From NCBI GenBank assembly GCA_945878865.1, contig CAMCUD010000010.1:1-64000 (forward strand): 64,000 bases of DNA. The letters run 5' to 3'. This document shows positions 2,217 to 59,672 of the stretch, one piece after another; within the stretch, counting starts at the first letter, position 1, and the number at the start of each line of letters is the position of its first letter. Below the pieces are notes generated by a model. It searched no databases. It worked only from the letters and a program-made list of their open reading frames with translations, and had not been told where the DNA came from. This DNA is from Bifidobacterium breve. GTDB lineage: Bacteria; Actinomycetota; Thermoleophilia; Solirubrobacterales; Solirubrobacteraceae. Position numbers and translations under genes: made by a program.

Positions 2217-3499
2217 ACCGGTGCCTCGGCAATTGCGCCCTTCGGGGCGGCGCGGACCGCGAAGCCGAGCATCACGAGCGCGCACACCGACTGGACCGCG
2301 AGCACGACGAGGCCGAACGAGCGGAACCCGTCCCCGAAGGCGAGCAGACCCGCGAGCTCGGCCGTCAGCGCCGTGCCGAGGATGAAGAGGAACGTCCAGT
2401 GCCGCAGCGCGAGCAGGTACTGGCCGGCGAGGTAGCAGCAGGCCAGCAGCGTCATGGCCGTTCCGAGCGGGAAGAGGGCGGGGGCGGCGTCGGCGTACTC
2501 CTCGCCGAAACCGGCGCGGAGCAGCTGCTCCGGGGCGGCGAAGAAGATCAGGAGCACCGGGACGGCGAGCAGCCCGATCGCCCCGAGCGCCTGGGCCAGC
2601 GCGCCGAACGGCGCGTCGCCGCGCGCAGCGCGCCTGGACGCCTCCGGCACGACGTACACCGCGAGCCCGATCGCCACCCAGATGAGGACCTTCGCGGCGA
2701 CGGCGGCGGCGGTGTACGACCCGGCCTCGTCGTCGGGCAGCTCGTGCTTGGCGATGATGACGTCAAGGCTCTGCAGCGCCATGAGCAGCGTCAGCGCGAT
2801 GATCGCCGACCAGGCGCCCGCGGCGAGGCGATGCAGGGCCGGCGTCGCCTCGTCGCCCTGCGGCCGGCCCATCCGCTGCTGCAGGACGGCGAGCAGCGCG
2901 ACCGCGGCGATCGTGAACGACAGCGGGGTGCCCGCGAACGCGCCGGCGACGCCCGCGCCGGTGACGAGCAGCGCCAGGCCGCAGACCACCCGGCCCAGGG
3001 CCTCGCCCACGATGCTCCAGGCGACCGCCCCGATGGCTCCGGCGCCCTGCAGGACACCGCGCAGCAGGCAGAGGGCGAACCACGCGCACGCGCCGGGCAG
3101 CACGAGCGCGGCGGCCCAGACCTGGTCGACGCCGGTGATCGCGCCCAGCGGCTCCCGTGCGGCAACGCTCACAAGGGTCAGGACGACCGCGGCTAGGATG
3201 ACCGGACGGAGCCAACGCCGCGTGACGGCCGCGAGTTCCGGGCCGTCTCCGTACCGCCCCGCTGCCACGTCGCGCGCCGCCGCGACCTGGAGCGCGGACC
3301 CGGGGACGCCCAGGATGAGCAGCCAGGACGTCAACGCCGCCAAGGATCCGTAATCTTCCTCGCCAAGCACCCGCGCGAAGACGACCGTGAAGACGATCGC
3401 GAGGGCGTTTGCGGTGAGCGATGCGACGGCCAATCCAGCGACCTGGGGGCTATCGCGTCCGCGCCACCGGGAAGGATGGAGTCGCACGGCCCCGAACAT
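2213..3499 (-). CDS. Oligosaccharide flippase-like membrane protein (MATE/MOP superfamily)
   Basis: The 428-residue protein is almost entirely hydrophobic with about 12-14 predicted membrane helices, starting with VAGLAVASLTANALAIVFTV and the VFARVLGEEDYGSLAAL motif. That 'FARVLG-x(2)-x-YG' pattern after helix 1 is characteristic of Wzx-like polysaccharide flippases, which move lipid-linked sugar units across the cytoplasmic membrane. It is followed by a coupled TPR-like gene, and an O-antigen ligase-like gene lies nearby. The start is uncertain: the ATG at 3499 leaves only 10 bases to the divergent ATG at 3510, and a GTG at 3487 is also possible. Confidence 0.8.
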   Translation of the reverse strand: MFGAVRLHPSRWRGRDSPQVAGLAVASLTANALAIVFTVVFARVLGEEDYGSLAALTSWLLILGVPGSALQVAAARDVAAGRYGDGPELAAVTRRWLRPVILAAVVLTLVSVAAREPLGAITGVDQVWAAALVLPGACAWFALCLLRGVLQGAGAIGAVAWSIVGEALGRVVCGLALLVTGAGVAGAFAGTPLSFTIAAVALLAVLQQRMGRPQGDEATPALHRLAAGAWSAIIALTLLMALQSLDVIIAKHELPDDEAGSYTAAAVAAKVLIWVAIGLAVYVVPEASRRAARGDAPFGALAQALGAIGLLAVPVLLIFFAAPEQLLRAGFGEEYADAAPALFPLGTAMTLLACCYLAGQYLLALRHWTFLFILGTALTAELAGLLAFGDGFRSFGLVVLAVQSVCALVMLGFAVRAAPKGAIAEAPV

Positions 3500-3509
3500 T
3501 ACGACCGAG

Positions 3510-3941
3510 ATGCCCCTGAACGACACCCCCGCGATCCGTCGCCGCCTCCTGGCGGTGGTGCTCACCGGTGCGCTCGTGGCTCCGTCCCCGGCGTTCGCGC
3601 AGGGCGCAGGCGACGATCAGTACAAGGACCCGTTCCCCGAGACGACCGCCCAGGACGCCCAGTCGGGCTCCTCGACGTCGACCTCGAGCCAGGGCCTGTC
3701 GCAGACGCCGCCCTCGTCGACGACCGAGGGCTCGTCGTCCTCGGGTTCGACGGGGTCGACGAGCGGTGCCTCGGCCGGGACCACCGCAGCGGGTGACACG
3801 TCCGCGTCCACGACGACGTCGCAGGCGGCCAGCCTGGCGCGCACGGGCGACGATCCGTGGCTCATCGCGCTGGCGGGCGCGTCGCTGCTGCTGCTCGGCG
3901 CAGGCCTGCGGCTGCGCAGCGGTGCGCAGCGCCGTCACTGA
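3510..3941 (+). CDS. Secreted Ser/Thr-rich protein with LARTG sorting signal
   Basis: The 143-residue protein has a signal peptide (RRRLLAVVLTGALVAPSPAFA), a low-complexity Ser/Thr/Gly linker (about residues 45-108) and a C-terminal LARTG motif, a hydrophobic helix and a basic tail. LAXTG signals are known substrates of class E sortases in high-GC actinobacteria, which attach proteins covalently to the cell wall. The start is the ATG after which the signal peptide begins. The tsaE reading frame overlaps its last 20 bases. It is probably a cell-wall-anchored stalk; no binding domain is visible. Confidence 0.75.
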   Translation: MPLNDTPAIRRRLLAVVLTGALVAPSPAFAQGAGDDQYKDPFPETTAQDAQSGSSTSTSSQGLSQTPPSSTTEGSSSSGSTGSTSGASAGTTAAGDTSASTTTSQAASLARTGDDPWLIALAGASLLLLGAGLRLRSGAQRRH

Positions 3942-50466: not shown

Positions 50467-53400
50467 GTGCGCCCGACCTCTCATCCGAGGCGGACGCCCC
50501 GTACCCGCGCACGACGCGCGGGTGGGGCGCTCCTGTCCTCGGCCGGCCTGCTGTTCGCGCTCGCGAGCCCGGCTGACGCCGTCAACACCGTCACGACCGC
50601 CAACACCGTCGAGTGGGGCGTTCACGACGCCTCGCGGCCCGGCCTGGACACCGGCAGCATCCGCAGCACGACGAACAACTCGCTCGTCGGCTTCGGCAAC
50701 CTTCGGATCGTCGTCTCCGACGTCCCGGACACGGATCCGACGAAGCGCTTCAACGGCGAGATGCTCCGCGGGTTCGGCCTGCGATTCGACGGCGAGGACG
50801 GATCGGACCCGACGTTCGCGACGACGAAGCCCGTCACGCTCGGCGGCGTCGAGGTGACCCGCACGCTGAAGGTCCTCTCCGCGACGAATGCGGTGCGCTG
50901 GTTCGACACGTTCACCAACACGACCGATCGCACGCTGACGGTCGCGACGTCATTCGGCGGCACCGCCGGCACGACGAACGCGTCGACGCACAGCAAGATC
51001 GTCGACACCGGCAGCGGCGACGCGACGGCAACCTCCGCCGACGCGTGGGTCGAGGTCGCCACGCCGCACAGCAGCGCGACGACGCTGACGTCGGGCCCGA
51101 CGGTCAGCGGCCCGAGCGCCGTCGTGCTCGGCACGCCGACCGCGGCGTTCAACATCAGCGGGCTCGGCGTGCAGCAGTACAACCCGTTCGCCACGGCGCT
51201 GCCGACGAGCCCGTCGGACACGCTGAAGGACAGCTTCTACGGGTACACCCAGACGCTCACGCTCACACCGGGTCAGACGAAGTCGCTGCTGCGCTTCGTC
51301 GTCGCCGGGCGCGGAGAGAAGACGACGCCGGCGAGCACGCTGCCCGCTCCGGGCACCGAGATCGCCGCGGTGAAGACCGGGGCGTCGGCGCTGAGCGCGG
51401 CTCCGGACCTCGCGGGCGTCGCGTTCAAGGACATCTGCACGCTGGCCAACTGGAACCTCGCGGCGCTGCCGGGCTTCAACGAGAGCCTGTGTGAGGAGGT
51501 CGACACGACCGTCGAGCCGAGCGCGAAGCCCACGAAGCTTCCCGTGACGAGCTCGCCGTACGACGTCGTCGGGAAGTCGCTCTCCGAACTCGAGGAGGAC
51601 ATGGAGGCCGGCAAGACGACGTCGCAGGAGATCACCCGCGCCTACCTCGACCGCATCGCCGCCTACGACACCGGGCAGTTCGGCCTGCACAGCTTCATCA
51701 CCGTCGCTGGCGACGCGATGGAGCAGGCCAAGAAGGCCGACGAGCGCCGCAAGGCAGGGGAGACCGGCGACCTGCTCGGCATCCCGATCGCGGTCAAGGA
51801 CCTCTACGACACGAAGGACATGCCGACGACCGACGGCACGCTGGCCCTCGACGGCTGGCGGCCCAAGCGCGACGCGTTCCAGGTCAAGAAGCTCCGCGAG
51901 GCCGGCGCGGTCATCCTCGGCAAGACGAACCTCTCGGAGTTCGCGAACTCCGGCAGCTACTCCGAGTCGGGCTACGGCATGACGTGGAACGCGTTCAAGC
52001 CGTCGAAGACGACGCTCGGCTCGTCGGGTGGCACGGCGTCCGCGCTGGCCTCGAGCTTCGCGGCGATCGGCATGGGCTCGCAGACCGGCGTCTCCCTCTA
52101 CGCGCCGTCGACGGGCGCGGGCCTGGTGTCGATGCGCGGGACCGACGGCGTCGCCTCGGGCGCCGGCGTGATGCCGCTGACCTGGCTGCAGGACTTCGCC
52201 GGGCCGATCGGCCGCACCGTCGAGGACGTCGCGCGGTTCCTCAACGTCACGACGGGCCCCGACCCCGACGACGTCTTCACCATCCACAACGACGCGGGCG
52301 AGAAGGCGCCTGACGACTACACCGACTTCCTCGACGAGGACGCGCTGGTCGGCAAGCGCATCGGGTACATCCCGTCGGCGTTCACCGGCAGCCCGAGCTA
52401 CGGCCAGGACAGCGGCACGATGGACGCGATGGTCGGCAAGCTCCAGGAGTTCGTCGACGCCGGAGCGACGCTCGTGCCGATCGACACCGCGGTGAACCCG
52501 GTGCCGTCGACCGGCAGCGCGGGCTCGCTGACGGGCAACCGCACGATCGAAGGCTGGAAGCGCTACCTCGACCTGCACGAGGACCCGCCGTACGACAGCG
52601 GTGCGCAGATCCTCTCCTCGCCGAAGGTCCTGCCGTACAACCGCCGCACCCAGGCCGACGTGCCGGGGCTGACCGATGCGGACGTCGACAAGATCCTCGC
52701 CTCGCGCGACGTGTCGAAGGACCGCATCAAGACCTGGATGGACACGCTGAACGTCGACGCGGTCGTCTACCCGGGCTTCCGGTCGGACATCTACGACAAC
52801 GACGGCGCGCAGACGCTGTCGTCGGACCGCAACAGCGGCGTGCTGACGTCGAACTACGGCCTGCCGACGGCGATCATCCCGGTCGGCCCGAACCCGAGCG
52901 GCGACGCGATGACGCTGCAGATCGTGGGCCGAGCCTTCGACGACGGCAAGATCCTCGGCTACGGCTACGCGCTGGAGCAGGAGGTCGGCGCCGTCGGCAA
53001 GATGGTGCCCGCGACGACGCCGAAGCTCGCCTACGAGCCCGGCGCGACACCGGCGCCCATCGAGCCCGATCGTCCGACGGAGCCGGTCACGACGCCGAGC
53101 GCGCCGGACCCGATCTCCAACGCGTCGGCGCCGTTGCCCGCGTCGCAGACCGCGAAGCCGAAGACGGGCGTGACGATCACGAAGACCGCGCGCCTGCGCG
53201 GCGGGCGTGTCGGCCTGACGCTGAAGAACACGACGGGCCAGACCCTCACGGGCACCGTGGTGATCAAGGGCAGGGCGACGAAGAACGGCCGGACGGGCAC
53301 CTACACGTTCGGCAGCGCGAAGGCCACGATCGGACCCGGTGGGACGAAGGTCGTCTCGGTGAAGCTCGGGCCGACCGGCCGCAAGGCGTTCGCCCGGCGC

Positions 53401-53487
53401 TCCGGACTGAAGCTCAGCGTCCGGTTCTCCGGACGCCCGGCACCCGCGGCATCGACCGTGAGCGGGACCGTCACGGTCACGAAGTAG
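50467..53487 (+). CDS. Large secreted amidase with beta-rich flanking domains
   Basis: The 1006-residue protein has a long basic signal peptide (to about residue 40), a beta-rich N-terminal domain (40-310), an amidase-signature domain (about 350-880) and a C-terminal beta domain rich in Thr/Lys (910-1006). The catalytic triad Lys444 (IAVKD), Ser519 (GSSGG) and Ser543 (TGVS) is present, with the same 75- and 24-residue spacing as in FAAH. The usual GGS loop reads GVS. It probably hydrolyses an amide outside the cell; the substrate is unknown. Confidence 0.82.
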   Translation: MRPTSHPRRTPRTRARRAGGALLSSAGLLFALASPADAVNTVTTANTVEWGVHDASRPGLDTGSIRSTTNNSLVGFGNLRIVVSDVPDTDPTKRFNGEMLRGFGLRFDGEDGSDPTFATTKPVTLGGVEVTRTLKVLSATNAVRWFDTFTNTTDRTLTVATSFGGTAGTTNASTHSKIVDTGSGDATATSADAWVEVATPHSSATTLTSGPTVSGPSAVVLGTPTAAFNISGLGVQQYNPFATALPTSPSDTLKDSFYGYTQTLTLTPGQTKSLLRFVVAGRGEKTTPASTLPAPGTEIAAVKTGASALSAAPDLAGVAFKDICTLANWNLAALPGFNESLCEEVDTTVEPSAKPTKLPVTSSPYDVVGKSLSELEEDMEAGKTTSQEITRAYLDRIAAYDTGQFGLHSFITVAGDAMEQAKKADERRKAGETGDLLGIPIAVKDLYDTKDMPTTDGTLALDGWRPKRDAFQVKKLREAGAVILGKTNLSEFANSGSYSESGYGMTWNAFKPSKTTLGSSGGTASALASSFAAIGMGSQTGVSLYAPSTGAGLVSMRGTDGVASGAGVMPLTWLQDFAGPIGRTVEDVARFLNVTTGPDPDDVFTIHNDAGEKAPDDYTDFLDEDALVGKRIGYIPSAFTGSPSYGQDSGTMDAMVGKLQEFVDAGATLVPIDTAVNPVPSTGSAGSLTGNRTIEGWKRYLDLHEDPPYDSGAQILSSPKVLPYNRRTQADVPGLTDADVDKILASRDVSKDRIKTWMDTLNVDAVVYPGFRSDIYDNDGAQTLSSDRNSGVLTSNYGLPTAIIPVGPNPSGDAMTLQIVGRAFDDGKILGYGYALEQEVGAVGKMVPATTPKLAYEPGATPAPIEPDRPTEPVTTPSAPDPISNASAPLPASQTAKPKTGVTITKTARLRGGRVGLTLKNTTGQTLTGTVVIKGRATKNGRTGTYTFGSAKATIGPGGTKVVSVKLGPTGRKAFARRSGLKLSVRFSGRPAPAASTVSGTVTVTK

Positions 53488-53536: not shown

Positions 53537-55942
53537 TCAGGCGGGCCGCGCGGTGACGACGATGTTGTCGCGGTAGTGGCCCGTCTGCTCGTTGAACGGA
53601 CCGCCGCAGGTGACCAGCACGAGCCGGCGCTCGCCGGTGCGGGTGAAGATCCCGGTTGGCAGGTCGGCCTTGCGGGTGCGGCGCATGCCCGTGACCTTCC
53701 AGCGGCGCGTCTTGCCGTCGTCCGAGCTCAGCAGCACGGTGTCGCCGCGCCGGGCGCTCTTCAGGGCGTAGAACGCGCCCGCGCCCGCCTTCGCGCTGTC
53801 GACGTGGCCGGCGAGCAGGATGGTCCCTTCGTCGTCGCCGGGGGAGGCGCCGTCACGCCACCAGCCGACGCGGTCGATGTTCTTCGGGATGCCGAGGGCG
53901 CCGGTGGCGAGGTCGATGTCGGCGCTGGCGATCGGCGCCCGGATGCCCAGACGTGTGAGCTCGACCCGGGTCGGGACCGGCCGGTCGCCGTCAGCGGCGG
54001 CCCGCGCCGAGCCGGTGGGCCGGACCTGCACGTCGCCGCGGCCCGTGAGGATGAGCGGCGCGGCGAGGGAGGTCTCGGCCTCGACCCCGCAGCGCTCCTC
54101 GGTCGCGGCAACGAGGTCGCTGCCGACGATCGACTCCACGTAGGTGTAGAACCCGGCGCGCTTGACCTGGGTCTTCGGCGAGCGCACCTCGCCGTCGCCC
54201 TTGACGTCGACCGTGCCCTTCCAGGTCGGGGCGCCCTTGCACGTCATGTCCGCGCGTGTCGCGTACGGCCCGTACAGCTTCACCTCGACGGTCGCGGGAG
54301 TCGCGCCCAACCCGCTGACCTTGATGCGGTCGTAGAGCTCGGCGCCGGGCTTGACGACGGCGTCGGAGGCGATCGTCGTGACCTTCGGCGCGGCTCTGGC
54401 GAACGTCGTCTCGCTCGCCTCGCCGCAGGCCGTCTGCACGCCGCCGAACGCGGGTGACTCGGCGATCGACTCGCGGTACGTGTAGTAGCCGGCGGACGGG
54501 ATCGTCACCGGCTCGGTCGTGTACGAGCCGTCGCCGTTCGCGGTGAACGTGCCCTTCCATGCGGGCTCGCCCTGGCACGTCATCGCGTCGCGCGAGGCGT
54601 ACGGCCCCCAGAGCTCGACGTTCACCGTCGCGGTGAGCACGCCCAGGCCCGAGACGACGGCCGTATCGGTGATCTTCGCGCCCGGCGCCGTCTCAGCCGC
54701 GCTGATCTGGGTGGTGATCGCCGGCGTCCCGCGGACGACGGTCGTCTCCGCAGCCTCGCCGCAGGCGGTCTTCGCCGCGGCGACGCGATCGGTCTGGTCG
54801 ATCCACTCGACGTAGGTGTAGTACCCCGGGGTCTGCAGCGTGACCGGGTCGGTCGTGTACGTCCCGTCGCCGTCGGCGGTGAACGAGCCCTGCCACACGG
54901 GCGTCGCGTCACACTTCAGCTGGTCGGCCGCCGAGGCGGGCCCGTAGAGCGCGGCGTTCACGGTGACGCGCTGACCGGCCAGGCCCGAGACCTGGACGCT
55001 GTCGGTGATCTGCGCGCCGGGCACGGTCGTCTGCTGGCTGATCTGCGTGACGACCTTCGGCGTCACCCGGACGGGCGCCTCGACCGCGTCACTGACCGTG
55101 GCGGTGGCGCGGCCGGCGAGCCGCTGACCGCTGCGCGCCGCCTCGCCGCGGGTCGGGACGTAGAGCGCGGGCAGCTGCGCGGCCACCTCGGCCTTCGCGG
55201 TGACCTTCAGGCCGTCGGCGGTGGTGGGAGTGAGCGGGACCTTCGCGATCCCCTTCGCGTCGGTGCGCGCCTTCGCGTCCAGGCCGTCGGCGCCCTGGCC
55301 GTCGAGCGCCACCGGCACGTCGGAGAGCGCCGCGCCGGAGCTCGACGTCACCTTCACCGTCAGCGTGGTCTGCTGGCCGACCGTGAGGTCGGCGGGAAGC
55401 GAGGCCTCGACCGTGGAGGGCCCGGCCAGGCGCTCGGCCGCGCGGGCGATCGCCTTGTAGCGCCGCTCCACCGCCGGACCGATCGCATCGGGGGCGGCCT
55501 CGCCCGGCTCGGCGTCGCCCATGAGCCCGTGGACGTAGAGCATCATCGCGCCCTGCTGCGCACGGTCGCTCGACCGGCCGAAGCGCCACAGGGCGAACGC
55601 CATGCGGCGCAGCTTGTCCGCCGAGACGGCGTCACCGTCGCGGTTCTTCAGGCCGGCGGCCGAGCGGCGCTCGTAGCCGAAGCGCTTCGCCGGGTACCAG
55701 AACCGCAGATCCACGCAGAACAGCGGGTCGTCGACGCCCGCCACCGCGCCGCGGTAGTCGCCGAACCAGCGGATGCCATAGCGGTAGGTGCGGTACGCGC
55801 CGACCCCGGTGGTGTCGCACGTGTTGCGGCCCGCGCGCGAGCACGGGTCGTTCTGGTTCGGCGGTTCGGCGGCGGCCGCGACGGCCGGAGCCACGCACGC
55901 GGCGACGAGGAAGATGAGCGAGACGGACAGGAAACGAGACAC
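53537..55942 (-). CDS. Class F-like sortase fused to adhesin-like repeats
   Basis: The 801-residue protein has a signal peptide (RFLSVSLIFLVAACVAPAVA), an N-terminal domain (30-170) with CSRAG, CDTTG and FCVDLRFWYP that resembles actinobacterial thioester adhesin domains, an Ig-like domain (170-290), three repeats of about 100 residues (each with LYGP or LWGP, a Cys, W-x-G-T/S-F/V, and YYTY or FYTY), and a C-terminal class F-like sortase domain (about 660-801) with His713, Cys779 (VTCGG) and Arg791. Sortases attach proteins to the wall. Here enzyme and surface domains are one chain. No LPXTG signal or C-terminal membrane helix is seen. Confidence 0.8.
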   Translation of the reverse strand: MSRFLSVSLIFLVAACVAPAVAAAAEPPNQNDPCSRAGRNTCDTTGVGAYRTYRYGIRWFGDYRGAVAGVDDPLFCVDLRFWYPAKRFGYERRSAAGLKNRDGDAVSADKLRRMAFALWRFGRSSDRAQQGAMMLYVHGLMGDAEPGEAAPDAIGPAVERRYKAIARAAERLAGPSTVEASLPADLTVGQQTTLTVKVTSSSGAALSDVPVALDGQGADGLDAKARTDAKGIAKVPLTPTTADGLKVTAKAEVAAQLPALYVPTRGEAARSGQRLAGRATATVSDAVEAPVRVTPKVVTQISQQTTVPGAQITDSVQVSGLAGQRVTVNAALYGPASAADQLKCDATPVWQGSFTADGDGTYTTDPVTLQTPGYYTYVEWIDQTDRVAAAKTACGEAAETTVVRGTPAITTQISAAETAPGAKITDTAVVSGLGVLTATVNVELWGPYASRDAMTCQGEPAWKGTFTANGDGSYTTEPVTIPSAGYYTYRESIAESPAFGGVQTACGEASETTFARAAPKVTTIASDAVVKPGAELYDRIKVSGLGATPATVEVKLYGPYATRADMTCKGAPTWKGTVDVKGDGEVRSPKTQVKRAGFYTYVESIVGSDLVAATEERCGVEAETSLAAPLILTGRGDVQVRPTGSARAAADGDRPVPTRVELTRLGIRAPIASADIDLATGALGIPKNIDRVGWWRDGASPGDDEGTILLAGHVDSAKAGAGAFYALKSARRGDTVLLSSDDGKTRRWKVTGMRRTRKADLPTGIFTRTGERRLVLVTCGGPFNEQTGHYRDNIVVTARPA

Positions 55943-58709: not shown

Positions 58710-59672
58710 TCAAGACAGGTGCTTGACGATCTCGCAGTTGCGGATCGTGGAGTGGCCGGGGCGGTAGTAGACGGTGTCGCGGCCCGGCCCGCAGTCGATG
58801 ACGTCACGGCCGGTCCACGAGGAGCGGATGACGTCGTTGCCGGCCCCGCCGTCCATCCGGTCGTCGCCGTAGCCGCCCTTCAGCTCGTCGTCTCCGTCTC
58901 CGCCGCGCAGCACGTCGTTGCCGCGATCGCCGGTCATCTCGTCGTCGCCGGAACCGCCCTCGATCACGTCGTCGCCCTTGCGACCGGACAGGACGTCGTC
59001 GCCCGTGCCGCCGTCGAGGCGGTCGTCGCCGCCCGCGCCCTCGACCTCGTCGTTGCCGCCGAGCGCCTCGCAGACGTCGTCGCCGTCGGTGCCGTAGACC
59101 CGCTCGGCGTCGTCGCTGGCCTCCTCGTCGCACGGGACGGCCGGGGTGTCCTCGTCCTCCTCGATCGTCTCCTCGCACCCGGTCATGCGCTCGAGGTCCG
59201 ATTCGAGGTTGTAGTAGGCGATGTCGTCGCCCGGCCCGCAGTCGATGGTGTCGGGGCCGGTGCCGCCCTTGATGATGTCGTCGCCCGCGCCGCCGAAGAT
59301 GGTGTCGACCCCGCGATTGCCGTCGATGACGTCGTCGCCGGCGCCACCCCGCAGGACGTCGTCGCCGTAGCGCGATTCGATGATGCGGTCGTCACCCGGC
59401 CCGCCGTCGACGTGGTCGTTGCCGTCCCCGCCGTCGATGGTGTCGCGGCCGGTTCCGCCGAGGATGCGGTCGTTGCCGTCACCGCCGCGCAGGATGTCGT
59501 CGCCGCCGAACCCGAGGATGCGGTCGTTGCCGCCCAGGCCGAGCAGGCGGTCCGCGCCGCCGGAGCCCGCCATGCGGTCGACGCCCGCGCTGCCCGCACG
59601 GGCGAGGGCGACGCCGGCCGGCCCGAGCAGGGCGGCGACGGCCAGGAGGGTGAGAAGCGAGCGGCGGAGCAT
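58710..59672 (-). CDS. Secreted RTX-type calcium-binding repeat protein
   Basis: The 320-residue protein has a signal peptide (RRSLLTLLAVAALLGPAGVALA) and two blocks of GGxGxD nonapeptides (residues about 35-150 and 200-300), separated by an acidic Cys-containing stretch (CEETIEEDEDTPAVPC). Such repeats fold into a parallel beta roll when Ca2+ binds. It has no enzymatic domain and is exported by Sec rather than type I secretion. The two RebB-like genes follow 58 bases downstream in the same direction, possibly as one operon. Confidence 0.9.
   Translation of the reverse strand: MLRRSLLTLLAVAALLGPAGVALARAGSAGVDRMAGSGGADRLLGLGGNDRILGFGGDDILRGGDGNDRILGGTGRDTIDGGDGNDHVDGGPGDDRIIESRYGDDVLRGGAGDDVIDGNRGVDTIFGGAGDDIIKGGTGPDTIDCGPGDDIAYYNLESDLERMTGCEETIEEDEDTPAVPCDEEASDDAERVYGTDGDDVCEALGGNDEVEGAGGDDRLDGGTGDDVLSGRKGDDVIEGGSGDDEMTGDRGNDVLRGGDGDDELKGGYGDDRMDGGAGNDVIRSSWTGRDVIDCGPGRDTVYYRPGHSTIRNCEIVKHLS

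Follow-up and report, generated by a model that had tools for sequence, protein, structure and literature searches.

What does a sortase do at the end of an adhesin-like chain, and on which substrate does it act? The question is raised by a gene on the minus strand of the window, that is, the whole stretch of 64,000 nucleotides that was analysed; the gene (53537..55942) has a GTG start and an open frame of 801 codons plus stop (coding 53540-55942, stop codon 53537-53539). As the original prediction claimed, a thioester-domain (TED)-like head and a complete sortase are joined in this single 801-residue chain, in the N- to C-terminal order of signal peptide, TED head, three Cys-pair repeats, motif, linker and terminal sortase (the features of the gene given below are all on the minus strand). 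Three roles had been offered for such a chain, namely a sortase working at a distance from the membrane, one that attaches itself, and a cross-link to a host or neighbour surface; it is self-attachment that the evidence favours, and the distant sortase is unlikely. In the reading proposed here, which stands about an even chance of being correct, the protein is a secreted class II TED adhesin that ends in a class F-like sortase of its own, where the C-terminal sorting signal would otherwise stand, and that thereby sorts itself.

Export of the chain is suggested by its N-terminus. Residues 1-24 (55871..55942) form a putative signal peptide, probably cleaved before AEPPNQ as judged from the AxA pattern, and nearly all members of the family have AxA-type sites directly ahead of a conserved mature N-terminus. 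Lipoprotein anchoring via Cys16 (VAAC) was considered and rejected, because Cys16 is not conserved among the relatives. In Kyte-Doolittle profiles with a 19-residue window, the mature protein contains no stretch of transmembrane strength (maximum 1.33), and, signal peptides aside, no clear stretch of this kind is found in any member, the top value being 1.73, reached by a strand in the stalk of G748. Sigma-70 promoters and terminators were sought around the gene, and none was found.

The head (residues 25-290 as modelled, 55073..55870) was identified by its fold. An AlphaFold2 model built with the head alignment (pLDDT 86.2, pTM 0.86) has the order of secondary structure of a TED, with three helices and, ahead of strands P and Q, an inserted beta-sandwich. 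In comparisons by VIA-align, this model matches the class II TED crystal structures from Bacillus anthracis (6fwv; Z 10.4, 204 residues, rmsd 4.7) and Staphylococcus aureus (6fx6; Z 10.0, 200 residues, rmsd 4.3), with sequence identities of only 8-10%. Because these Z-scores are tied with those of rows that match the Ig part alone, the weight of the TED match lies in its coverage: among the matches listed, only 6fwv and 6fx6 span model residues 20-266, and nearly all of the 50 cover just the Ig part (about 85-97 residues). An Ig-like domain had also been predicted and is indeed present as a Big_1-like match at residues 190-252 with a Pfam score under the cut-off. It is better read as part of the head than as a separate stalk unit. 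In class II TEDs, according to an excerpt of PMC6194298, a beta-sandwich separates the helices from the strand that bears the bond-forming Gln; the same order of helices, sandwich and Gln strand indicates that the head and the Ig-like domain together make up one class II TED. The best reading of the model is therefore a class II TED with the Ig-like domain (residues ~177-263, 55154..55414, as delimited by Pfam, model and fold comparison) as its insert.

Searches other than VIA-align did not name this fold. The Pfam TED model PF08341 has no match in the window protein or elsewhere in its genome, nor in the control genomes, and it also misses both outgroup TED-like proteins described below (G573 and G600), so its silence here is uninformative. 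Compared with PDB sequences, the head profile had 14 matches at E values of up to 10; the best were of Ig type (intimin) and none was named a TED, so it is the fold that carries the TED match. A Foldseek search with the head model likewise gave mostly Ig-type structures and no TED among the 50 matches listed.

Within this fold, Cys76 (55715..55717) and Gln273 (55124..55126) are the probable thioester pair, as judged from their conservation. In the head alignment of the window protein and 26 others, the Cys76 column is Cys in 27/27 rows, and the Gln273 column (SGQRL) is Gln in all 26 heads that reach it, the 27th row being cut off by a contig end. FCVD at residues 75-78 agrees with the [YFL]C-hydrophobic-hydrophilic motif of class II TEDs, and the residue before the thioester Cys is W in some members of the family. 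For the last strand of the domain the expected pattern is a weak hydrophobic-Q-hydrophilic-hydrophobic-hydrophobic motif, and the residue preceding the Gln273 column is G, A or S, which is not clearly hydrophobic; an obvious motif in the Gln strand is often absent from class II TEDs, according to passages of PMC4450167. The helix corresponding to the TQxx-hydrophobic-W motif reads AQQGAMMLY in the window protein and lacks Trp, and according to the same source, in the part cited here, conservation of this motif is incomplete and the thioester bond can do without it. A thioester Gln within this TQxA-like helix (AQQGA, 128-132) was also considered and rejected, because the position is T in G020 and the Gln of the TQxA helix is not the bond-forming Gln of TEDs (PMC4450167, in excerpt). 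The mature head contains three cysteines (34, 42 and 76), and its earlier description as Cys-rich is thus too strong.

Three repeats of about 100 residues had been predicted to follow the head, and they were found, each 109 residues long and with a pair of cysteines: repeat 1 at residues 295-403 (54734..55060; Cys344/Cys394), repeat 2 at 407-515 (54398..54724; Cys456/Cys506) and repeat 3 at 519-627 (54062..54388; Cys568/Cys618). The Cys pairs probably form disulphides in the exported stalk. An adhesin-like protein from a further genome of the order (L012, 1480-2406) also has Cys-pair repeats, distant relatives of these, ahead of repeats of other kinds.

The C-terminal domain (residues 657-801, 53540..53974) is a complete sortase by its profile match and is assigned to a class F-like group by NCBIfam and the tree. 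The Pfam Sortase profile (PF04203) is covered from position 4 to 124 of 125 by residues 663-800 (E 4.8e-19, 68.8 bits against a cut-off of 26.6). The NCBIfam class F model matches residues 654-799 (E 4.5e-31, 107.6 bits) below its 166-bit cut-off, and the domain is therefore termed class F-like rather than class F. In a tree of 65 sortase domains, obtained by a quick search with no bootstrap, the 26 fused sortases lie on one side of one branch with SH-aLRT 95.

His713 (53804..53806), Cys779 (53606..53608) and Arg791 are located where the original prediction placed them, and His713 and the presumptive nucleophile Cys779 are invariant among the fused sortases (26/26). That Arg791 is the catalytic Arg is open to doubt, since in both sequence alignments Arg197 of S. 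aureus SrtA falls on Asn793 (53564..53566), which is invariant (26/26), and no SrtA-like catalytic Arg is in register; residue 791 is Arg in 22/26 and K, V, L or E in the other four. The Asn and the variable residue 791 would suit a domain that has lost catalysis and serves as a binding anchor for the wall or for the motif. This is highly improbable, however, given the invariant His and Cys and the presence of the same Asn in stand-alone class F-like domains, which makes it look like a trait of the family rather than decay. Among 44 rows from stand-alone class F loci, which include some chance matches and short frames, 25 have a readable x-[DE]-N motif, with Arg at the 791 position in nine of these 25, and a further set of stand-alone class F-like rows reads Y-x-G-N. 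Across the stand-alone class F-like sortases L102-L138, Asn (Y-x-[D/G]-N) is apparently conserved at the position of the SrtA Arg and the residue two earlier varies.

Between the last repeat and the sortase lies the sequence PLILTGR (residues 629-635, 54038..54058), followed by a linker of low conservation (residues 636-656, 53975..54037). In the 27 proteins with the strong head, described below, the consensus after the last repeat is P-[L/A/G]-[I/V]-x-[T/G]-G, mostly with R next: G634 and I or V at 631 occur in 27/27, P629 in 26/27, T633 in 24/27 (Gly in the remaining three) and R635 in 22/27, and position 630 is L in 18, A in 7 and G in 2. The motif has a mean entropy of 0.70 bits, compared with 2.54 for the linker, 1.37 for the last repeat and 1.22 for the sortase; with rank 29 among 283 seven-residue windows, the conservation of the motif is high and not unique. 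In a full-length structure model built from nine sequences, in which confidence in the sortase region is low to middling, residues 629-653 have pLDDT under 50; the Foldseek matches of this model, with TM-scores of 0.1-0.2, are mostly multi-Ig proteins and not informative.

P-[L/A/G]-I-x-T-G-R resembles a sorting motif in which Ile has taken the place of Pro. Replacement of the Pro is known from class E sortases, which use LAXTG (PMC5148588, in excerpt). The departures from LPXTG are Ile at position 2 and a residue other than Leu at position 1 in 9/27, and in place of a complete LPXTG sorting signal there is LILTG with neither a hydrophobic stretch nor a basic tail; the literature covered contains no class F sortase substrate with this motif. 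The motif also resembles the start of another repeat, P-x-[IV]-x-T, from which it probably derives, and its P, I and T may be a mere remnant of such a start. Among 78 repeat starts caught by a script that excluded any start reading as the motif itself, none has G after T and one has L after P.

The same architecture recurs across Thermoleophilia. The head profile gave 20 matches (13 strong and 7 weak) in an order sample of 232 genomes, where the weak ones begin in the Ig part, and 29 (24 strong and 5 weak) in a class sample of 399 genomes; as the two samples overlap, the strong matches come from 27 distinct genomes. All 27 holders have a sortase at the end, and a sorting signal stands in its place in none of them. 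Head and sortase lie in one open frame in 24/27, and in G002, G038 and G658 they are on two contigs, whose pieces were kept apart; contig ends truncate G136 a few residues short and G748 at the signal peptide. The window comes from a soil-type actinobacterium closely related to Svornostia abyssi: the best named match to the window protein, from that species (L019), has 75% identity, and G001, of the same genus, gives the same 75% match; identity of this level within the genus, together with the same architecture across the class, indicates that the architecture is not due to chance. A phylum sample of 396 genomes yielded two remoter TED-like heads, G573 and G600, both from outside the class, whose tails consist of LAHTG or LARTG, a hydrophobic stretch and basic residues, with no sortase domain. 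Because the remoter heads end in a sorting signal and the 27 holders in a sortase, the sortase replaces the sorting signal. That these chains form a class-wide family of natural self-sorting adhesins, in which enzyme, sorting motif and cargo are combined and a single sortase turn attaches each molecule, is conceivable at slightly less than an even chance.

This position also bears on where the enzyme sits. TEDs are almost always N-terminal and the wall anchor C-terminal (PMC4450167, in the passages cited), so a sortase in the place of the C-terminal anchor should be cell-proximal. The original prediction had instead imagined the enzyme on a stalk, at a distance from the membrane, an arrangement that an uncleaved N-terminal hydrophobic segment acting as a membrane anchor would produce. 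The AxA-type sites just before the mature start in nearly all members do not agree with this, nor does the mature chain, which has no segment of membrane-anchor strength; moreover, as the head directly follows the N-terminal segment, the TED would be buried at the membrane, contrary to the usual layout. Of all the readings, this display of the sortase at a distance is the least likely and is extremely improbable.

The sortase could also serve other surface proteins, the TED and stalk fixing the enzyme covalently to a surface or a neighbour. Such action in trans, which is unlikely, would correspond to the usual habit of sortases of acting on separate substrates, and a LARTG-type surface protein is encoded on the same contig as the fused gene, with a similar one in G001 (L148). 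This 184-residue secreted-type protein (window 3387-3941, plus strand) ends in SLARTGDD, a hydrophobic stretch and RRH, and the G001 protein has the same tail. However, the window genome has one further, separate sortase, which by its sequence we take to be class E-like, and the LARTG-type protein is probably a substrate of that enzyme. Nor is there a conserved neighbour substrate gene: no neighbour gene or operon is conserved, and no cluster is found in more than three of 23 loci. The fused sortase is the only PF04203 match in 11/27 holders, namely G020, a single-contig genome of 5.5 Mb, and every one of the ten family f5 holders (G423, G515, G552, G650, G658, G679, G682, G694, G698 and G718); in the other 16, the window genome included, another sortase is present or possibly present. 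The search behind these counts is incomplete: in G197 and G206 it did not pick up even the known fused gene. In G020 and G423, the best sorting-signal match (one examined in each) is not a genuine sorting signal, which also argues against substrates in trans; matches to the LPXTG-anchor model TIGR01167 mean little, because this weak model matches in 14/14 control genomes. A search of G000, G001 and G030 for L-I-x-T-G-R gave 19 pattern matches, three of them in the TED-sortase family, and none of the other 16 has a C-terminal sorting signal in the context viewed; in the stalk-linker position, the pattern occurs only in members of this family.

Two other products are encoded near the gene. A 320-residue protein (58710-59672, minus strand) consists of GGxGxD repeats, which are presumably calcium-binding and RTX-like, after a signal-peptide-like start. 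The gene at 50467-53487 (plus strand), convergent with the adhesin gene, encodes a 1006-residue secreted-type protein whose middle part we take to be amidase-like.

With a sortase in the place of the sorting signal, a motif before it, no other sortase match in many holders and no conserved partner gene, action of the sortase on its own chain is the simplest reading. After export, the predicted thioester head would be held out on the Cys-pair repeat stalk, with the sortase at the cell-proximal end of the chain. Cleavage at L630-I-L-T-G634, in cis or in a neighbouring copy, would leave a thioacyl enzyme on Cys779, and the stalk would be handed to an amine of a cell-wall precursor or of another protein, so that every adhesin molecule would supply its own attaching enzyme. 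Whether the enzyme makes such a cut between T633 and G634 in its own chain, with transfer of the stalk to an amine, is in our estimate evenly balanced between right and wrong. The weak points of this self-sorting are the unusual motif, the presumed nucleophile, a soluble sortase domain with no membrane anchor, which is unusual in itself, and the predicted activity.

Where the amine belongs to the next copy of the adhesin, at its AEPPNQ N-terminus or at a lysine, the cut stalks would be joined into a pilus-like chain. The motif and sortase evidence is identical for such a polymer, and A-E-P-P-N-Q is invariant at the mature N-terminus in 11 rows of one head alignment, though variable in remoter members. 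This conservation is more simply structural, however, and the known pilus assemblers are class C sortases, not class F (PMC13251363, in excerpt); a polymer-forming adhesin is thus quite unlikely.

If the self-sorting reading is true, one chain would combine two covalent chemistries: at its tip a thioester that bonds to the target, and at its base a sortase by which the chain anchors itself. Wall anchoring would then be possible as a one-protein, single-turnover process, self-cleaving sortase tags made by engineering would have a natural counterpart, and a sortase would be available together with a matching motif other than LPXTG. Class F sortases have physiological roles described as unknown, and deletion of all four of them in Actinoplanes missouriensis gave no phenotype (both from an excerpt of PMC13251363); because a probable substrate is built into the chain, function of the class F type becomes directly testable here. 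The open-licence literature yielded no description of a TED adhesin with a built-in sortase and no sortase paper on Thermoleophilia.

Each part of the chain has a counterpart in known systems. Like the class II TED adhesins BaTIE (6FWV), SaTIE (6FX6), EfmTIE86 and TIEpLS20 of the Bacillus subtilis plasmid pLS20, the window protein has an N-terminal head after the signal peptide, an Ig-type insert before the Gln strand and a repeat stalk, and its Cys-Gln spacing of 197 compares with 195 in BaTIE (Cys71-Gln266), 204 in EfmTIE86, 171 in SaTIE and 188 in TIEpLS20, as given in excerpts of the sources. It differs from them in a stalk with a conserved Cys pair instead of the described isopeptide domains and in the sortase domain where the sorting signal stands; TIEpLS20 is described, in an excerpt of PMC8092201, as having neither a sorting signal nor a sortase. 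With stand-alone class F sortases, the domain shares the sequence family, the His and Cys and the Y-x-D-N motif, but it has no membrane anchor of its own, stands behind an adhesin, lies on a separate branch and scores below the cut-off. An ectodomain and a class F-like sortase also share one open frame in other actinobacteria, in a chain with a DUF4397 ectodomain (L138, 1454-3301, plus strand) and in L137 (1996-3675, minus strand), which are possibly fused substrate and sortase genes; unlike the window protein, these are joined via two hydrophobic stretches with RRR between and lack a TED. In fusions of the BISOP type, the sortase reportedly frees or transfers the part preceding its own motif. 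Such engineered self-cleavage fusions (e.g. BISOP; PMC2901362, in excerpt) likewise place the sortase in the same chain as the target and the sorting motif, but they are man-made and combine SrtA with LPXTG, whereas the window protein is natural, predicted to be secreted and predicted to act on I-x-T-G-R.
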